DNA from: Bacteroidota bacterium | GTDB lineage: Bacteria; Bacteroidota; Ignavibacteria; UBA10030; BY39 | Direction of reading: 5' to 3' | NCBI GenBank assembly: GCA_030017895.1 | Contig: JASEGV010000014.1 | Coordinates: 1-50,779 of the forward strand | DNA: 50,779 nucleotides | Shown: piece by piece, positions 906 to 5,835 of the stretch | Layout of the letters: each line of letters opens with the position of its first letter | Position numbering within the stretch: position 1 is the stretch's first letter | Made by a program: the position numbers and the translations under genes | Notes under the pieces: generated by a model | Database searches by the model: none | Told to the model about the DNA's origin: nothing | Seen by the model: the letters and a program-made list of their open reading frames with translations, nothing else

Positions 906-912
906 GTTTATT

Positions 913-1040
913 TCAACAGCAAAAGCTTCCGGGTTTGTGTAAAGTTTCCAGACTGCCTTCTCCCTTCTCCCAGCCTTGCTCGGCTTTTACTGCGCTTATC
1001 TCCAATTGCCGCTTCACTCGCTTATCTTTTTCATCCTCGC
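913..1040 (-). pseudogene. Possible C-terminal fragment of an unknown charged protein
   Basis: The minus-strand frame reads EDEKDKRVKRQLEISAVKAE, then a short tail ending GSFCC and TGA at 913. It looks like a charged helical protein end. Further upstream the same frame only runs antisense through the dihydroorotase remnant. If real, it is a second gene fragment abutting the truncated dihydroorotase near 1040, which would mark a junction. No family is recognised, and it may be chance. Confidence 0.2.
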
Positions 1041-1044
1041 AGGG

Positions 1045-1962
1045 CGCTACAGGCAAGTGGACGTGCGCGTGGGCGCCAACCTCTGCCCCAGCCATGAGGA
1101 AGTCCCGAAGCTGATGGGAAGGCTTTTTGAATGGTTTTCAGGCGCAGAAAAGGCAATGCACCCATTCGAGCTTGCCGCGCTTGCGCACCTCAAGTCATTC
1201 CCACGGCAAAAGCCGGTCTGCGTTCATGCCGAGGACCGCGAGCGGATTGCCGAGCGTGTGGGCAAGTTCAAGCGGCAGAACGAGGTGCAGGACAAGCTGG
1301 TTTCGCAGATTGCCTGCGAGTTTGCGCTTCGCGAGGCAGGGAGGCTGAACCGGCGCGTTCACATCTGCCACCTCACCACTGGCCTGGAAATAGAGCTTTG
1401 CCGGCGCTACAAAAACGCGACCTACGAGATAACCCCGAACCATCTTTTCATGTCCACCGCAGACATCAGGTGCCTGGGGCCGTTGGGCAGGATAAACCCT
1501 CCCTTGCGCGACAAGCGCGAGCAGGCTGCATTGTGGCGGAACATAAACGATGATACAATAATTGCATCCGACCACGCGCCGCATTTGATAGCGCACAAGC
1601 TTTCCGGCTCGCCGGGATTTCCGGGCGTGGGCACGCTCCTGCCCCTGATGCTCAACGCAGTGCATGAAAAGAAAATAACAATGGAGCTTCTTGTGAAAAT
1701 GTGCGCATATAACCCCTCGGCTGCCTTCTGCCTCAGCTCCAAGGGCTCGCTCGCGCCGGGCTTTGACGCGGACATTGTTCTTGTGGACATGAAAAAGAAG
1801 TGGAGGATAACCGCTGAGAACCGCCTCTCCAAGTGCGGCTGGACGCCGTTTGAGGGCAGGGAAGTATATGGGAAAATAGAAAAGGTCTTCCTGCGCGGGA
1901 AGCTCGCTTACGACGGGGAAAAAGTCATCTCCAAGCCCGGCGATGGCAGGGAATTGCTCTAG
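1045..1962 (+). pseudogene. pyrC: Dihydroorotase, N-terminally truncated, archaeal-type
   Basis: About 305 residues match the class I/archaeal dihydroorotase/allantoinase amidohydrolases, which close carbamoyl-aspartate to dihydroorotate in pyrimidine synthesis. Visible blocks are VCVHAED, HICHLTTGLEIE, EITPNHLFM, a product-binding GPLGRINPPLRD, the catalytic ASDHAPH, GFPGVGTLLPLML, and the C-terminal GSLAPGFDADIVLVD beta strand. The first 90-110 residues, including the metal-binding HxH of the first strand, are missing. Family resemblance begins only around VDVRVGANL, and what precedes it (from an ATG at 976) looks like unrelated sequence. The fragment is far more GC-rich than the bacterial genes at 4.6 kb and beyond, so it is probably from another organism. 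It cannot be active as it stands. Confidence 0.75.
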
Positions 1963-2042
1963 TTTCAGCTTTCTTCTCACAGAAAAAGAACCCGGTTCAA
2001 CACCCATTCATCCATCAGAAGCCTTTACGCTGATTTCCCCCT

Positions 2043-2162
2043 TCAGCCGACGGTGTGGACTTTGCCATCGCACTTGTCCGTGCTTGTGATTTTCGCGCCC
2101 TTGCGCTCCTTTTCAGTTATGAGCGTGTCATAGCACCATTGGCAATATTTTTTCTTTGCCAC
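2043..2162 (-). CDS. Tiny Cys-containing protein of 39 residues
   Basis: A short frame with a GTG start at 2162-2160 is preceded by GGAGG seven bases upstream, the best ribosome-binding site in this part of the window. It begins (M)AKKKYCQWCYDTLITEKE and ends KCDGKVHTVG. One CxxC pair plus a later Cys and His suggest a small zinc-binding fold. It is lysine-rich and sits in the same high-GC block as the dihydroorotase remnant. I recognise no family. The strong Shine-Dalgarno and clean composition argue for a real gene. Confidence 0.55.
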   Translation of the reverse strand: MAKKKYCQWCYDTLITEKERKGAKITSTDKCDGKVHTVG

Positions 2163-2207
2163 AACCAGGCCTCCGTGGTTTTTTCATCCTTCAATGTCTA
2201 ATGAGCG

Positions 2208-2903
2208 TCAGTCCTGCTTCGACTTGGTAAAGAAGTCGGTGGCGGGCGCGTCCTTCTTCTCCTCAGGCGGCTTTTGCTTTTGAACCTGCTCAGCCTTATT
2301 TTCAGAGGCTTTGCCGTCCTTTTCAAGAGACTCTTCCATGCCGGTCTTTGGACGGTGCTTCTCGGCTATGCCCTTGGTTTTCTCATATTCACCCTTCCGC
2401 CTCTTCCTCTCCTCCCTGTCCTGTGCCTTCTCGCCTTCCTTTTTCGTTTGACTGCCGCCCTTTGGCTGGGATTTTTTCTGCTCGTTGAGTTTCTGGAGTT
2501 GTTCGTTAGTCCATTTTGTGAACTGATCGAAAACATCTGCGCCATATTCTTTTTTCATATACTCTTGCAGTTTATTGAACCCCTCCTCGGTTCTCTTGAA
2601 TTTTTGTTCTTTCCCTAACCCCGTTACAGTATAATATTTACTATCTGCAGAAACTATTAGTCCGTGCTCTTTGTTTAAATAATCTTTTTTTTCCATAACT
2701 TCTTCAAATTCTTTAAATGATACAATTTCATCTTTCTTCCCTACTAGAGCAGAGAAATCTTTCTTTTTTTCTGATTTTGGAATATTTGGAATCCGAACGC
2801 GCTCTTTTTCCAATCCCCCTTCTAGCATGGGCTGTCGATTGATTGGGATTTCATTAAGCGGTGGCTTCTGCTCCTTTTTTGATACGGGTTCAGCATTTCC
2901 CAT
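2208..2903 (-). CDS. Hydrophilic, lysine/glutamate-rich protein of unknown function
   Basis: 231 residues with no signal peptide or membrane segment. Residues roughly 45-130 look like a small folded part (FSALVGKKDEIVSFKEFEEV, then a segment with YYTVTGLG and a YMKKEYGADVFDQFTKW helix). Residues 130-231 are a low-complexity charged tail (repeated KK/EE/QK), probably disordered or coiled. The start MGNAEPVSKK is 17 bases after the stop of the upstream unknown gene, so the two may be co-transcribed. The foreign style of the block and the lack of recognisable relatives leave origin and function open. Confidence 0.5.
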   Translation of the reverse strand: MGNAEPVSKKEQKPPLNEIPINRQPMLEGGLEKERVRIPNIPKSEKKKDFSALVGKKDEIVSFKEFEEVMEKKDYLNKEHGLIVSADSKYYTVTGLGKEQKFKRTEEGFNKLQEYMKKEYGADVFDQFTKWTNEQLQKLNEQKKSQPKGGSQTKKEGEKAQDREERKRRKGEYEKTKGIAEKHRPKTGMEESLEKDGKASENKAEQVQKQKPPEEKKDAPATDFFTKSKQD

Positions 2904-2919
2904 ATTATCAACCTGGTCG

Positions 2920-3612
2920 CTAGTTAAAGATGGCCGCCACTTCGTCCTTTTTCATTTCCATTTCCCCCGTTCTTAATACCTGAATTTTGAAACCCGCAAA
3001 TTCATCATCTCTTACGTCAACCACATCTGACCCATTTCCTTCCCTAATTGTTGCGCGGGTTAGTCGCGGAAAACCATCTCCAAAGCGATCAGCGTATTTC
3101 CTCTGAATCACAGTATTTGTTTTCATTATCAGTATCATTGTGTTTGTTGTGGCAAAAAGTGTGCCATCGGATGACACGTATATAGCTCCGTCATGAGTGA
3201 AAATCTTACTTCCATCTTTTGGTTTTAATGTCCCAACATGTACGGTATCAAATGAAGAATTGGGGGTCACGCGATCAATCCAATTTTCTGCTACCACGTA
3301 TGCACAATTACCGACGCCATCTATATTTGTGTATATAATTTGTTTTATATCTCCTTTCTTAATCTCAATATCAAACGTCTTTTCCCCGACTATCTTGATG
3401 CCGTTCTCGTAAGTAACTTTCATCTCTTTCGGCACCTCTATCTTCGCGACCTGTTTCGCCTCGTTCTTGTTTTCCTTCACCGCGCTCGCTACCGGTTTGT
3501 TCGCTGCAAAGTTTCTGTCTGCCTTTTCTTGTGCGCTTGCGGGCGTGAATGCTGCGCTGAGTGTAAAACAAATCTGCGCAGTTATGCCATCTATACCAAA
3601 TCTTGTATACAT
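2920..3612 (-). CDS. Unknown protein, N-terminus fused at a sequence junction
   Basis: 230 residues. Residues about 10-28 (AQICFTLSAAFTPASAQ) resemble a signal peptide with an AxA-like cleavage site, so it may be exported. The rest is beta-rich (IEIKKGDIKQIIYTNIDGVG, then HVGTLKPKDGSKIF, AIYVSSDGTLFATTNTMI) and ends EMKKDEVAAIFN. The first residues (MYTRFGIDG) overlap, in another frame, the coding sequence of the glycosidase-like gene. The true start was therefore probably lost and replaced at a junction near 3570-3600. No family recognised. Confidence 0.45.
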   Translation of the reverse strand: MYTRFGIDGITAQICFTLSAAFTPASAQEKADRNFAANKPVASAVKENKNEAKQVAKIEVPKEMKVTYENGIKIVGEKTFDIEIKKGDIKQIIYTNIDGVGNCAYVVAENWIDRVTPNSSFDTVHVGTLKPKDGSKIFTHDGAIYVSSDGTLFATTNTMILIMKTNTVIQRKYADRFGDGFPRLTRATIREGNGSDVVDVRDDEFAGFKIQVLRTGEMEMKKDEVAAIFN

Positions 3613-4498
3613 CTCTCTCTTTTACAACACAAGATTGAAAGAGACCTTCTTTATCATCGGTGGAATGCTCTGTCGTGAGAATAGGATTTCCTCCGTACTT
3701 TCCCCATGCAATTCCATCTTTTGAAGCCGCATAGCCGATAGCACGCTGTTTCGTATTGCCAAAATAGAATGCCTCATAGTAGGAACTATCCGGCAGTACA
3801 TCGGCAATCCATTGCTCGTACTCGTCCCATGTGCCTGCCTCACCTGATTCAAATAGCGGATTATGGAGTGTGTCTTTTATCCAGTTAATTCCATCCGAAG
3901 AAGTAGCAATGCCTGACTGCCATCGTGTGTCAGAGCGAAAACCGTTGTACCACATCTTCCACTGTTTGCCCTGCTTGAGAACAGGTCCGGCAGATAATCC
4001 GTAATCATCCCACCAACCCGGGTCGCCCCGCTTCAACACAGGATTGTTGGCGTCGTCTTTCGTCCACGATATGCCATCAGAAGAAATTGCGTGGCAAATC
4101 ACTCCAGTATTCGTATAGCTGCGGGCTGTGTAATACATGTGGTAGTTGGTACCATCGTAAACCACAGCACCCGGTGAAACAACGTGGTCGTCAATTGCAC
4201 CTCGCGGTCCAACTCTTAGAATGGGATTGCCGGGATACTTTGCCCATGTGAGACCATCAGCAGACGTTGCATATCCGATTTGCCTGCAAGTGTCGTTATT
4301 ACCTGCGTACCACATTCGATAGAGCTCGCCGTCGAAAAGTATGCGTGGATGCGAGACTTGTTTGCTCTCCCATGAACCATCGTGTCCGACCCGGAGAACG
4401 GGATTTCCTTCGTATTTTGTGAAAAGTGTTTGTGCACCAGCAATGATTGAGAAAAAACACAAAGAAATGAATGCGAGTATTTTGGGATAATACATCAT
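3371..4498 (-). CDS. Secreted five-bladed beta-propeller glycosidase-like protein, C-terminus replaced
   Basis: The start at 4498 is chosen because AAAGGAG lies 7 bases upstream. The protein begins MMYYPKILAFISLCFFSIIA then GAQ, a signal peptide. Residues 25-290 contain repeated blade motifs of the GH43/GH32/GH130-like superfamily: (R/K)MWYAG, IGYATSADGLTWAKYPGNPI, YHMYYTA, ISSDGISWTKD, WKMWYNG, IATSSDGINWIKD. Such proteins bind or cut plant- or mannan-type glycans, but the substrate cannot be told. After about IWYRWHN (near 3590) the frame turns into a lysine/arginine-rich tail that is simply another gene read out of frame. The native C-terminus is therefore missing. Confidence 0.65.
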   Translation of the reverse strand: MMYYPKILAFISLCFFSIIAGAQTLFTKYEGNPVLRVGHDGSWESKQVSHPRILFDGELYRMWYAGNNDTCRQIGYATSADGLTWAKYPGNPILRVGPRGAIDDHVVSPGAVVYDGTNYHMYYTARSYTNTGVICHAISSDGISWTKDDANNPVLKRGDPGWWDDYGLSAGPVLKQGKQWKMWYNGFRSDTRWQSGIATSSDGINWIKDTLHNPLFESGEAGTWDEYEQWIADVLPDSSYYEAFYFGNTKQRAIGYAASKDGIAWGKYGGNPILTTEHSTDDKEGLFQSCVVKERDVYKIWYRWHNCADLFYTQRSIHARKRTRKGRQKLCSEQTGSERGEGKQERGETGREDRGAERDESYLRERHQDSRGKDV

Positions 4499-4539
4499 AT
4501 ATATCTCCTTTGTCATTTTTTAAGTTCGATTTCGATTGC

Positions 4540-4590
4540 AAACCTCCCGAAGTTTGATTGAGTTTAATTTTAGAAAACCTTCGGGAGATT
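4540..4590. repeat. Hairpin repeat R, copy 1
   Basis: Arms AACCTCCCGAAG and its near-complement around CTTCGGGAGATT enclose an AT-rich loop containing TTGATTGAGTTTAATTTTAG. The same element recurs at 5157-5206 and 5909-5982. This copy sits 32 bp beyond the stop of the DUF2442 gene. Confidence 0.85.
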
Positions 4591-4622
4591 CACTTTTTCC
4601 ACACGTTGCAAATTTTCAATTT

Positions 4623-4865
4623 TTAAAAATTAGTCAGCGATTCGACAGAAATATCTTCATCAATTTCTTCCCAGTGAACTCCTATACCCTCACCTATTAA
4701 CCGCCAATTGTTACGCTGCTCATTATTCGCATCTCGTAATTTTGGGAACCAATCGAGGGGTACGCTCACCTCACGTCCGTCTAAGAAACGGGCATGAAGC
4801 ATTAAATCGTCGAACCATACATTTTTTATGAAAGACGCTGCGGTCTTAACGGCTAAAGTACTCAT
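4623..4865 (-). CDS. DUF2442-type small protein (partner of the DUF4160 gene)
   Basis: 80 residues. The features seen are FDDLMLHARFLDGREVSVPL, then DWFPKLRDAN and NNWRLIGEGIGVHWEEIDED with SVESL near the end. The pattern L-x-x-x-F-x-D-G-R-x-V-x-x-P-L-x-W-x-P-x-L and the closing G-x-x-I-x-W-x-x-x-D-x-D-I-S are typical of DUF2442. Genes of this family are usually paired with DUF4160 and treated as a putative type II toxin-antitoxin module, mostly on genomic evidence. It overlaps the upstream DUF4160 gene by 20 bases, implying translational coupling. Cytoplasmic. Confidence 0.8.
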   Translation of the reverse strand: MSTLAVKTAASFIKNVWFDDLMLHARFLDGREVSVPLDWFPKLRDANNEQRNNWRLIGEGIGVHWEEIDEDISVESLTNF

Positions 4866-5082
4866 TCCATTTCTCCTTAAATAAAATACATTTTGTTATT
4901 ATCAATTTACGAATATCATTTAATTCTCTTGCATCATAACCGACTGACCGTGAAAGCTCTACGGGGTCAAGCCAAAATTTTGCATAATTGTCATCGGACT
5001 CAACATGAATATGTGGCGGCTCATTAAATTCTCTGCTGAAAAAGAAAAACCTATAATTTTTAATCCTTAATATCGTCGGCAT
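4846..5082 (-). CDS. DUF4160-type small protein (putative toxin-antitoxin partner)
   Basis: 78 residues beginning MPTILRIKNYRFFFFSREFN and carrying EPPHIHVESDDNYAKFWLDP. 'PTI-x-x-x-x-Y-R-(F/I)-x-F-(F/Y)-S-x-(E/D)-x-x-E-P-x-H-(I/V)-H-V' is the signature of DUF4160. First gene of a two-gene operon with the DUF2442 protein. A clear promoter lies just upstream (-35 TTGATA at 5132-5137, -10 TATAAT at 5109-5114). Whether this or the partner is the toxin is not known from the sequence. Confidence 0.8.
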   Translation of the reverse strand: MPTILRIKNYRFFFFSREFNEPPHIHVESDDNYAKFWLDPVELSRSVGYDARELNDIRKLIITKCILFKEKWNEYFSR

Positions 5083-5108
5083 ACGCTAAATAAAAAGTCT
5101 TCTGTATT

Positions 5109-5137
5109 ATTATAACAAAATATAATATGATTATCAA
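5109..5137 (-). promoter_or_regulatory. Sigma-70-type promoter of the DUF4160/DUF2442 pair
   Basis: Read on the minus strand: TTGATA (5137-5132), 17-base spacer, TATAAT (5114-5109). The expected start point is about 20 bases before the ATG at 5082. The -35 box begins 20 bp inside of repeat R copy 2. Confidence 0.7.
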
Positions 5138-5156
5138 AGCAAACACAGCCGTTGCG

Positions 5157-5390
5157 AACCTCCAGAATGTTGATTGAGTTTAATTTTAGAAAACCTTCAG
5201 GAGGTTAAGCCGAACTGTCGGGTACAATATCCCTCGACAAGTGGTGTAGAACACCATGGCGCTTTAGGCGCTCACTCGGGGTGGGCGCTTTAGCATGTCA
5301 ATTGTCTGTGCTCTTCGACAGACTAAGAGTCCGTCGTACCGGTTATGTTATTTTACTTCTTCTTATCCGGGTACGGCGGAATTAGAAGAA
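5157..5390. repeat. Repeat R copy 2 plus duplicated tail of the tricorn gene (copy A)
   Basis: 5157-5206 is the hairpin repeat. The following bases to about 5390 match 5983-6205 with scattered substitutions. The matched part includes the last 12 or so codons of the tricorn-like gene (minus-strand IPPYPDKKK and TAA) at about 5345-5390. Copy A has an extra stretch near 5241-5273 containing the palindrome TGGTGTAGAACACCA. It ends exactly at the stop codon of the RelE-like toxin gene. No gene lies in 5083-5390. Confidence 0.8.
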
Positions 5391-5657
5391 TCACATTTTA
5401 CGATAGACATCTTTCCGATGGCGAACATGATATATGAAAATTATTTTATCATGGACGTTGACCTGATATATTACACGGTAGTCGCCAATTCGTATTCGAT
5501 AGCTTGATTCACTACCAAGAAGTTTACGATGTTGTTTAGGATATGGGTCGTTAGAAAGCGTTGAAACCGAATCGATTATCCTCGGGATTTGTTGTCTGTC
5601 TATACCTCTCAAATCTCGTTTGGCAGATTCCTTCCAGTGGATACTATAAGAGCCCAT
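5391..5657 (-). CDS. RelE/ParE-family toxin
   Basis: 88 residues from ATG at 5657: MGSYSIHWKESAKRDLRGID at the start, then a core reading YRIRIGDYRVIYQV and a close IFIYHVRHRKDVYRKM. The 'YR-x-R-x-G-D-Y-R-(V/I)-(I/L)-Y' strand and C-terminal 'V-x-H-R-K-(D/E)-V-Y' are diagnostic of RelE-type toxins, which cut mRNA on the ribosome using the conserved Arg and Tyr residues seen here. An in-frame TTG two codons earlier is a less likely start. The start overlaps the antitoxin's last 14 bases (translational coupling). The stop codon abuts the duplicated tricorn tail. Confidence 0.88.
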   Translation of the reverse strand: MGSYSIHWKESAKRDLRGIDRQQIPRIIDSVSTLSNDPYPKQHRKLLGSESSYRIRIGDYRVIYQVNVHDKIIFIYHVRHRKDVYRKM

Positions 5658-5835
5658 CGGCAACTAATTGTCTTTTCAATTCTTCAAAGCTCGTTGTCGG
5701 TTCATCGCGCCGCTCGGCTATCACAGCTAGGTCATGAACATCTTCCATTAATTCTTCAAACTCTTCCAATGGAATCACCACAGCAGTTTTATCGCCCGCC
5801 TCATTTGTTAGGTACTGTGTTTGAATTTTATTCAT
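5644..5835 (-). CDS. Phd/RelB-type antitoxin
   Basis: 63 residues: MNKIQTQYLTNEAGDKTAVV, then IPLEEFEELMEDVHDLAVIA and a tail with TTSFEELKRQLVADGLL. The N-terminal beta strand/helix with 'xxxVVIPLEEFEELxEDxxDLxxIAER' is typical of Phd/YefM- and RelB-like antitoxins. The C-terminal helix (FEELKRQLVADGLL) is the toxin-binding part. AGGA lies 9 bases before the ATG. It is the first gene of the operon and likely represses its own promoter just upstream. Confidence 0.88.
   Translation of the reverse strand: MNKIQTQYLTNEAGDKTAVVIPLEEFEELMEDVHDLAVIAERRDEPTTSFEELKRQLVADGLL

Follow-up and report, generated by a model that had tools for sequence, protein, structure and literature searches.

Inter-domain DNA transfer involving DPANN archaea is discussed, in the sections of PMC8204110 given to it, as the presence of bacterial genes in DPANN genomes. 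All cultivated DPANN archaea require archaeal hosts, as stated in the corresponding part of PMC11291902, and bacterial hosts for some of them are presented as an open question in that section of PMC8204110. Judged on titles and abstract openings, no report was found on micrarchaeal DNA in the bacteria treated here or on the ORF1/ORF2 gene pair described below. We have analysed a contig of a Bacteroidota bacterium (Ignavibacteria, lineage UBA10030) in which a foreign block, at about 950-3562, comes by its homologues from the chromosome of a UBA10161-related micrarchaeote (phylum Microcaldota, DPANN). We consider it moderately probable that one variable micrarchaeal locus was captured repeatedly and landed in a bacterial gene for a secreted GH130-like protein (GH hereafter).

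The window (50,779 nucleotides) spans contig C14 in full. The host genome comprises 3.2 Mb in 176 contigs, with a listed completeness of 100% and contamination of 0.7%. Host repeats flank the block on both sides, and between them follow, from left to right, the end of a sorting tail, a three-fragment plus-strand frame, a zinc-ribbon-like gene, ORF2, ORF1 and the GH130-like protein (Table 1). The left-hand repeats have further copies elsewhere in the host genome. The sorting-tail end matches with 98% identity over 42 nt the 3' end of a gene on host contig C17 (G000:C17), which carries a Por_Secre_tail domain. The high G+C of the first part of the block, pointed out in the preliminary description, was confirmed (0.565 at 1001-2000 versus 0.38-0.47 from 4.5 to 9 kb) and is confined to that part, with 0.40 at 2501-3500. 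Just left of the block, positions 720-907 form a series of short hairpins, some with copies elsewhere in the genome at 77-84% identity. Upstream of GH, at 4623-5835, are small genes for DUF2442, DUF4160, a ParE-like toxin and a likely antitoxin, the latter named by position only. The contig starts within an integrase-core (rve) transposase gene (1-299), so that this contig end is probably an insertion-sequence break.

Table 1 Features of the foreign block and its borders (positions in the window)
Feature	Position	Strand	Basis and remarks
End of a type IX secretion sorting tail (14 codons plus stop)	908-949	-	Same strand as GH; borders the foreign block on its left
CDP-alcohol phosphotransferase fragment, micrarchaeal (archaetidylinositol-phosphate-synthase-like)	951-1043	+	Protein matches; family taken from parent genes
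Fic gene fragment, micrarchaeal	1039-1194	+	Pfam Fic; 84.6% nt and 81% aa identity to UBA10161
Dihydroorotase C-terminal part, micrarchaeal, own stop kept	1190-1962	+	81% aa identity to UBA10161; tree; family matches
Zinc-ribbon-like gene, 39 aa	2043-2162	-	GGAGG ribosome-binding site; 82% aa match in DeMMO2_4
ORF2, hypervariable micrarchaeal gene, after ORF1	2208-2903	-	UBA10161 homologue; alignment
ORF1 domain (hypervariable micrarchaeal protein lacking its native N-terminal part)	2920-3562	-	Micrarchaeal homologues; alignment
Secreted GH130-like protein fused to ORF1, with a frame break near 3590	3563-4516	-	Pfam Glyco_hydro_130; fused in frame in DeMMO2_4 and C1_metabat.bin.52
Host repeat element, repeat family D1	4550-4625	.	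Directly precedes GH; two related copies, at 5166 and 5939

The block had been described as beginning with an N-terminally truncated dihydroorotase. The truncation holds; the beginning does not, as the plus-strand open frame 955-1962 consists of three joined gene fragments (CDP-alcohol phosphotransferase, Fic and dihydroorotase) and the foreign part runs from about 950. The dihydroorotase at 1201-1962 (+) comprises the last 253 residues, the first of them corresponding to residue 176 of the 429-aa UBA10161 protein. The N-terminal 175 residues are absent, including the HxH motif (residue 68 in UBA10161), which we take to be metal-binding; the fragment is thus short of a complete, functional dihydroorotase. 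The phosphotransferase fragment shows 71% aa identity over 28 residues to micrarchaeote G100 and 43% to UBA10161 (G098:C66); a weak blastn match of window 982-1043 to the G100 locus was accepted only once these protein matches concurred. The counterpart of the Fic fragment in UBA10161 is L152:8646-8801. At both inner joints, phosphotransferase/Fic and Fic/dihydroorotase, the parent sequences overlap by about 5 nt.

The host genome holds two other dihydroorotase-like genes of its own. In a dihydroorotase tree of 85 rows (length threshold 170 residues; the short C1_metabat.bin.52 fragment was left out, and no other row was lost), the window sequence groups with that of DeMMO2_4 (100/97) and then with UBA10161 (99/94), in a six-row clade otherwise made up of Microcaldota (100/100). 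Of five dihydroorotases taken from other genomes of the order, four cluster separately and one is placed on a long branch. This phylogeny had been proposed as a check on foreign origin, which stands, given the placement away from the dihydroorotases of the host's order.

Gene order points the same way. Fic lies directly behind the phosphotransferase gene in UBA10161 (phosphotransferase > Fic), and in micrarchaea G100, G264 and G113 the order is ORF1 > ORF2 > < phosphotransferase, with ORF1-ORF2 facing the phosphotransferase as in the window. The window order would agree with these if about 0.9 kb between phosphotransferase and Fic had been deleted. A search with ORF1 and ORF2 profiles, both built from the three bacterial copies introduced below, found the two genes adjacent in UBA10161. 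In UBA10161, region L152 5583-9940 (G098:C66) also codes for an exported protein that is ORF1-like but shorter, close to Fic and phosphotransferase; nucleotidyltransferase-like and PIN-type-like genes, named by eye, lie in between.

Of 301 genomes from the micrarchaeal phylum, six have an ORF1 match, five of them counted as clear. In four of these five MAGs (G098:C59, G101:C55, G264:C7 and G113:C16) the match lies at most 160 bases from where the contig starts, which would fit a hypervariable, partly tandem family that interrupts assembly. Micrarchaeal ORF1 and ORF2 are also low in G+C (0.39-0.46), and an 85-nt part of the window ORF1 shares 80% identity with one of the UBA10161 paralogues. 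A hydrophobic stretch, seen by eye near the N-terminus of micrarchaeal ORF1, suggests that the protein is probably exported in these archaea. The structure predicted for ORF1 from three sequences had a mean pLDDT of 38.8, and no reading was drawn from it. The zinc-ribbon-like gene bears the strong GGAGG site noted earlier, 7 bases ahead of its GTG start near 2162 (-); it had no match in the micrarchaeal loci compared, and its neighbours suggest a micrarchaeal origin. One scan of viral contigs (viral_contigs) with profile A1 for a viral or plasmid carrier gave no relative.

Homology thus demonstrates an archaeal origin for dihydroorotase, Fic, ORF1 and ORF2. The earlier suggestion that DNA of an archaeon, possibly a DPANN member, was captured is supported by the tree, the synteny of ORF1 and ORF2 in UBA10161, the nucleotide identity of Fic and the facing gene order, and proteins that could not be placed at that stage are now seen to be micrarchaeal. 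Two further points go beyond the preliminary description, namely the identity of the left edge as a type IX sorting-tail end and the occurrence of the glycosidase fusion in other genomes.

That fusion had been described as out of frame, and the GH130-like ORF (3371-4516, -) and ORF1 (2920-3612, -) are indeed in different frames in the window. ORF1 was found in only three of 98 genomes of the host's order: the window genome and the MAGs DeMMO2_4 and C1_metabat.bin.52. Both MAGs carry ORF2 and ORF1, with ORF1 fused to the same GH130-like protein at nearly the same place in one open frame (541 and 575 aa, respectively). Since GH and ORF1 form a single frame there, the right-hand 'broken gene' of the window is, by comparison, a frameshifted copy of the GH-ORF1 fusion that changed slightly in length near 3590. 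The joint is nearly identical in the three copies, not letter for letter, DeMMO2_4 retaining slightly more GH sequence. The copies have different genomic neighbours and different truncations of the archaeal flank, and dihydroorotase is truncated in all of them. The DeMMO2_4 copy lies within a 187-kb contig with ordinary bacterial genes on both sides and is cut on the dihydroorotase side beside a repeat sequence and a Y1 transposase, whereas in C1_metabat.bin.52 a short dihydroorotase fragment is joined directly to the region beside ORF2. By eye, this fragment (L039 / L137 900-1184) adjoins an apparent transposase end on the opposite strand, presumably of IS630 type.

These copies bear on the possibility that bacterial and micrarchaeal genomes were joined in assembly, the second option of the preliminary description and the first hypothesis of our analysis, which lost weight once the same fusion turned up in two other MAGs. 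Borders at repeats, the position of ORF1 at contig ends in several micrarchaeal MAGs and the nearness of the block to the contig start would all fit a chimera. However, the joint is not private to one assembly and occurs once inside a long bacterial contig, and the joints lie on overlaps of about 5 nt, too short for k-mer assembly. We regard a chimera as very improbable, so that of the two options archaeal capture is retained and the assembly join disfavoured. Capture is further supported by the recurrence of the fusion with different neighbours, by the short overlaps and by the sorting-tail end on the GH strand.

The three copies could descend from a single capture, the fusion then spreading among bacteria and the archaeal part diverging there. 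The nearly identical joint, the differing neighbourhoods and the repeats and Y1 transposase at the DeMMO2_4 borders are what such a history would leave. The dihydroorotase speaks against it. Between the window and DeMMO2_4, 75 of 564 bases and 16 of 188 residues differ, a number of residue changes so low that it was reached in none of 5000 neutral simulations; in the comparison with C1_metabat.bin.52 (20 of 228 bases, 6 of 76 residues) it was reached in one of 5000. Such a pattern demonstrates divergence under strong purifying selection, although the gene is truncated in every bacterial copy. Nor do third positions show a clear A+T trend on either branch: polarised changes number 8 to A/T and 6 to G/C on the window branch, and 4 and 7 on that of DeMMO2_4, with 19 changes not polarisable. 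GC3 is 0.71-0.73 in the fragments versus 0.35-0.43 in host genes. Given few residue changes and no drift to host base composition, the copies diverged as working genes in G+C-rich genomes, the simplest setting being different micrarchaea. The selection signal without compositional drift was the reason for setting a single capture aside as the main reading, and the different ORF2 types, shared with different micrarchaea, also tell against it: the start of ORF2 in C1_metabat.bin.52 resembles UBA10161 and that in DeMMO2_4 resembles G264. We consider this history quite improbable. The closest copies are those of DeMMO2_4 and C1_metabat.bin.52, whereas among the hosts it is the window genome and C1_metabat.bin.52 that share a genus.

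The bacterial copies would thus carry material of at least two micrarchaeal donors. The data behind this claim are 188 and 76 codons of the dihydroorotase and the types shared by two short, hypervariable genes. With at least two donors behind three copies, capture of the locus, or exchange of its archaeal part, would have occurred more than once, as argued for by the purifying selection, the lack of A+T drift and the different ORF2 types.

The origin of GH is less straightforward. A close GH occurs in the same three of 98 order genomes as ORF1, the other two copies being 83% and 75% identical in amino acids to that of DeMMO2_4, and the best unfused relatives in the order reach 42-45% identity. 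Neither these 98 genomes nor 360 from the phylum yielded a close GH in unfused form. GH being seen only in fused form is a point for the main rival to repeated capture, by which the GH-ORF1 fusion formed in micrarchaea after uptake of GH from bacteria and was handed ready-made to bacteria several times. Two more observations favour this rival: across the three copies GH distances scale with those of dihydroorotase (ratios 3.2-3.5), and GH has the same G+C in all of them (0.47-0.48), close to that of ORF1/ORF2. Against it, no GH was found among 196 genomes of the micrarchaeal phylum in a search run without a positive control, and GH codon use is host-like, with arginine CGN at 0.67-0.75 versus 0.20-0.44 in the bacterial ORF1 copies. 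In addition, all three copies end near the GH start, with no archaeal genes upstream, and in the window a sorting-tail end persists at the far edge. We hold a ready-made fusion to be unlikely.

Repeated capture, our preferred reading, would have proceeded as follows. A piece of micrarchaeal chromosome, with roughly the order phosphotransferase > Fic > ... > dihydroorotase > < zinc ribbon < ORF2 < ORF1, would enter a bacterium and land in a secreted GH130-like gene, apparently displacing most of its type IX sorting tail. Such a tail is present in the GH130-like relative L111; the fused proteins of DeMMO2_4 and C1_metabat.bin.52 show no such match, and the window keeps only its 14-codon end, beyond the insert. 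We infer that the landing was inside the GH gene and that integration kept the GH/ORF1 end constant while the opposite end was joined illegitimately. The result would be GH fused in frame with the exported domain of micrarchaeal ORF1, with ORF2 next to it. Unused archaeal genes would then shrink by short-overlap deletions or be cut by repeats and insertion sequences, and later micrarchaeal DNA would arrive at the same locus again. That homology facilitated a step of integration is only a guess, as no unfused recipient was seen. The unseen recipient also counts against repeated capture as a whole, as do the proportional distances, which look as if GH and dihydroorotase moved together, and the nearly constant joint, which independent landings would not easily yield. 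So does the record itself, each bacterial copy being known from one MAG and one contig, with several borders at repeats.

At the cell surface, a secreted GH with ORF1 might conceivably display or bind something, and the fusion protein is expressible. A tentative idea, which we rate as doubtful, is that these bacteria acquire DNA from a micrarchaeal partner again and again, refreshing the archaeal half of one locus from new donor types; it would look as if the exchange were arms-race-like or served partner recognition. If true, such uptake would give evidence, from genomes, that contact between DPANN archaea and bacteria is lasting. Recurrent capture by one bacterial order points to two groups to be sought together, a bacterial partner group and a clade of archaea, and a foreign block with broken edges can reflect a recurrent biological event rather than an assembly fault.

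Among known systems, type IX-tailed secreted GH130-like proteins of the same order resemble the window protein in their GH130 and GH32N-like matches and the same kind of repeats, and differ in that a micrarchaeal ORF1 domain here appears to take the place of the sorting tail. Homology-facilitated illegitimate recombination, as outlined in the portion of PMC3240628 consulted, is similar in the constant GH/ORF1 end and variable dihydroorotase-side end of the three copies, and differs in that no homologous recipient gene was found in the genomes of order and phylum searched and uptake is putative here. Finally, inter-domain transfer with DPANN shares with this locus the crossing of DNA between a DPANN archaeon and bacteria; compared with the cases in the relevant sections of PMC8204110, the transfer here would run from archaeon to bacteria, recur at one locus and yield a fusion protein.
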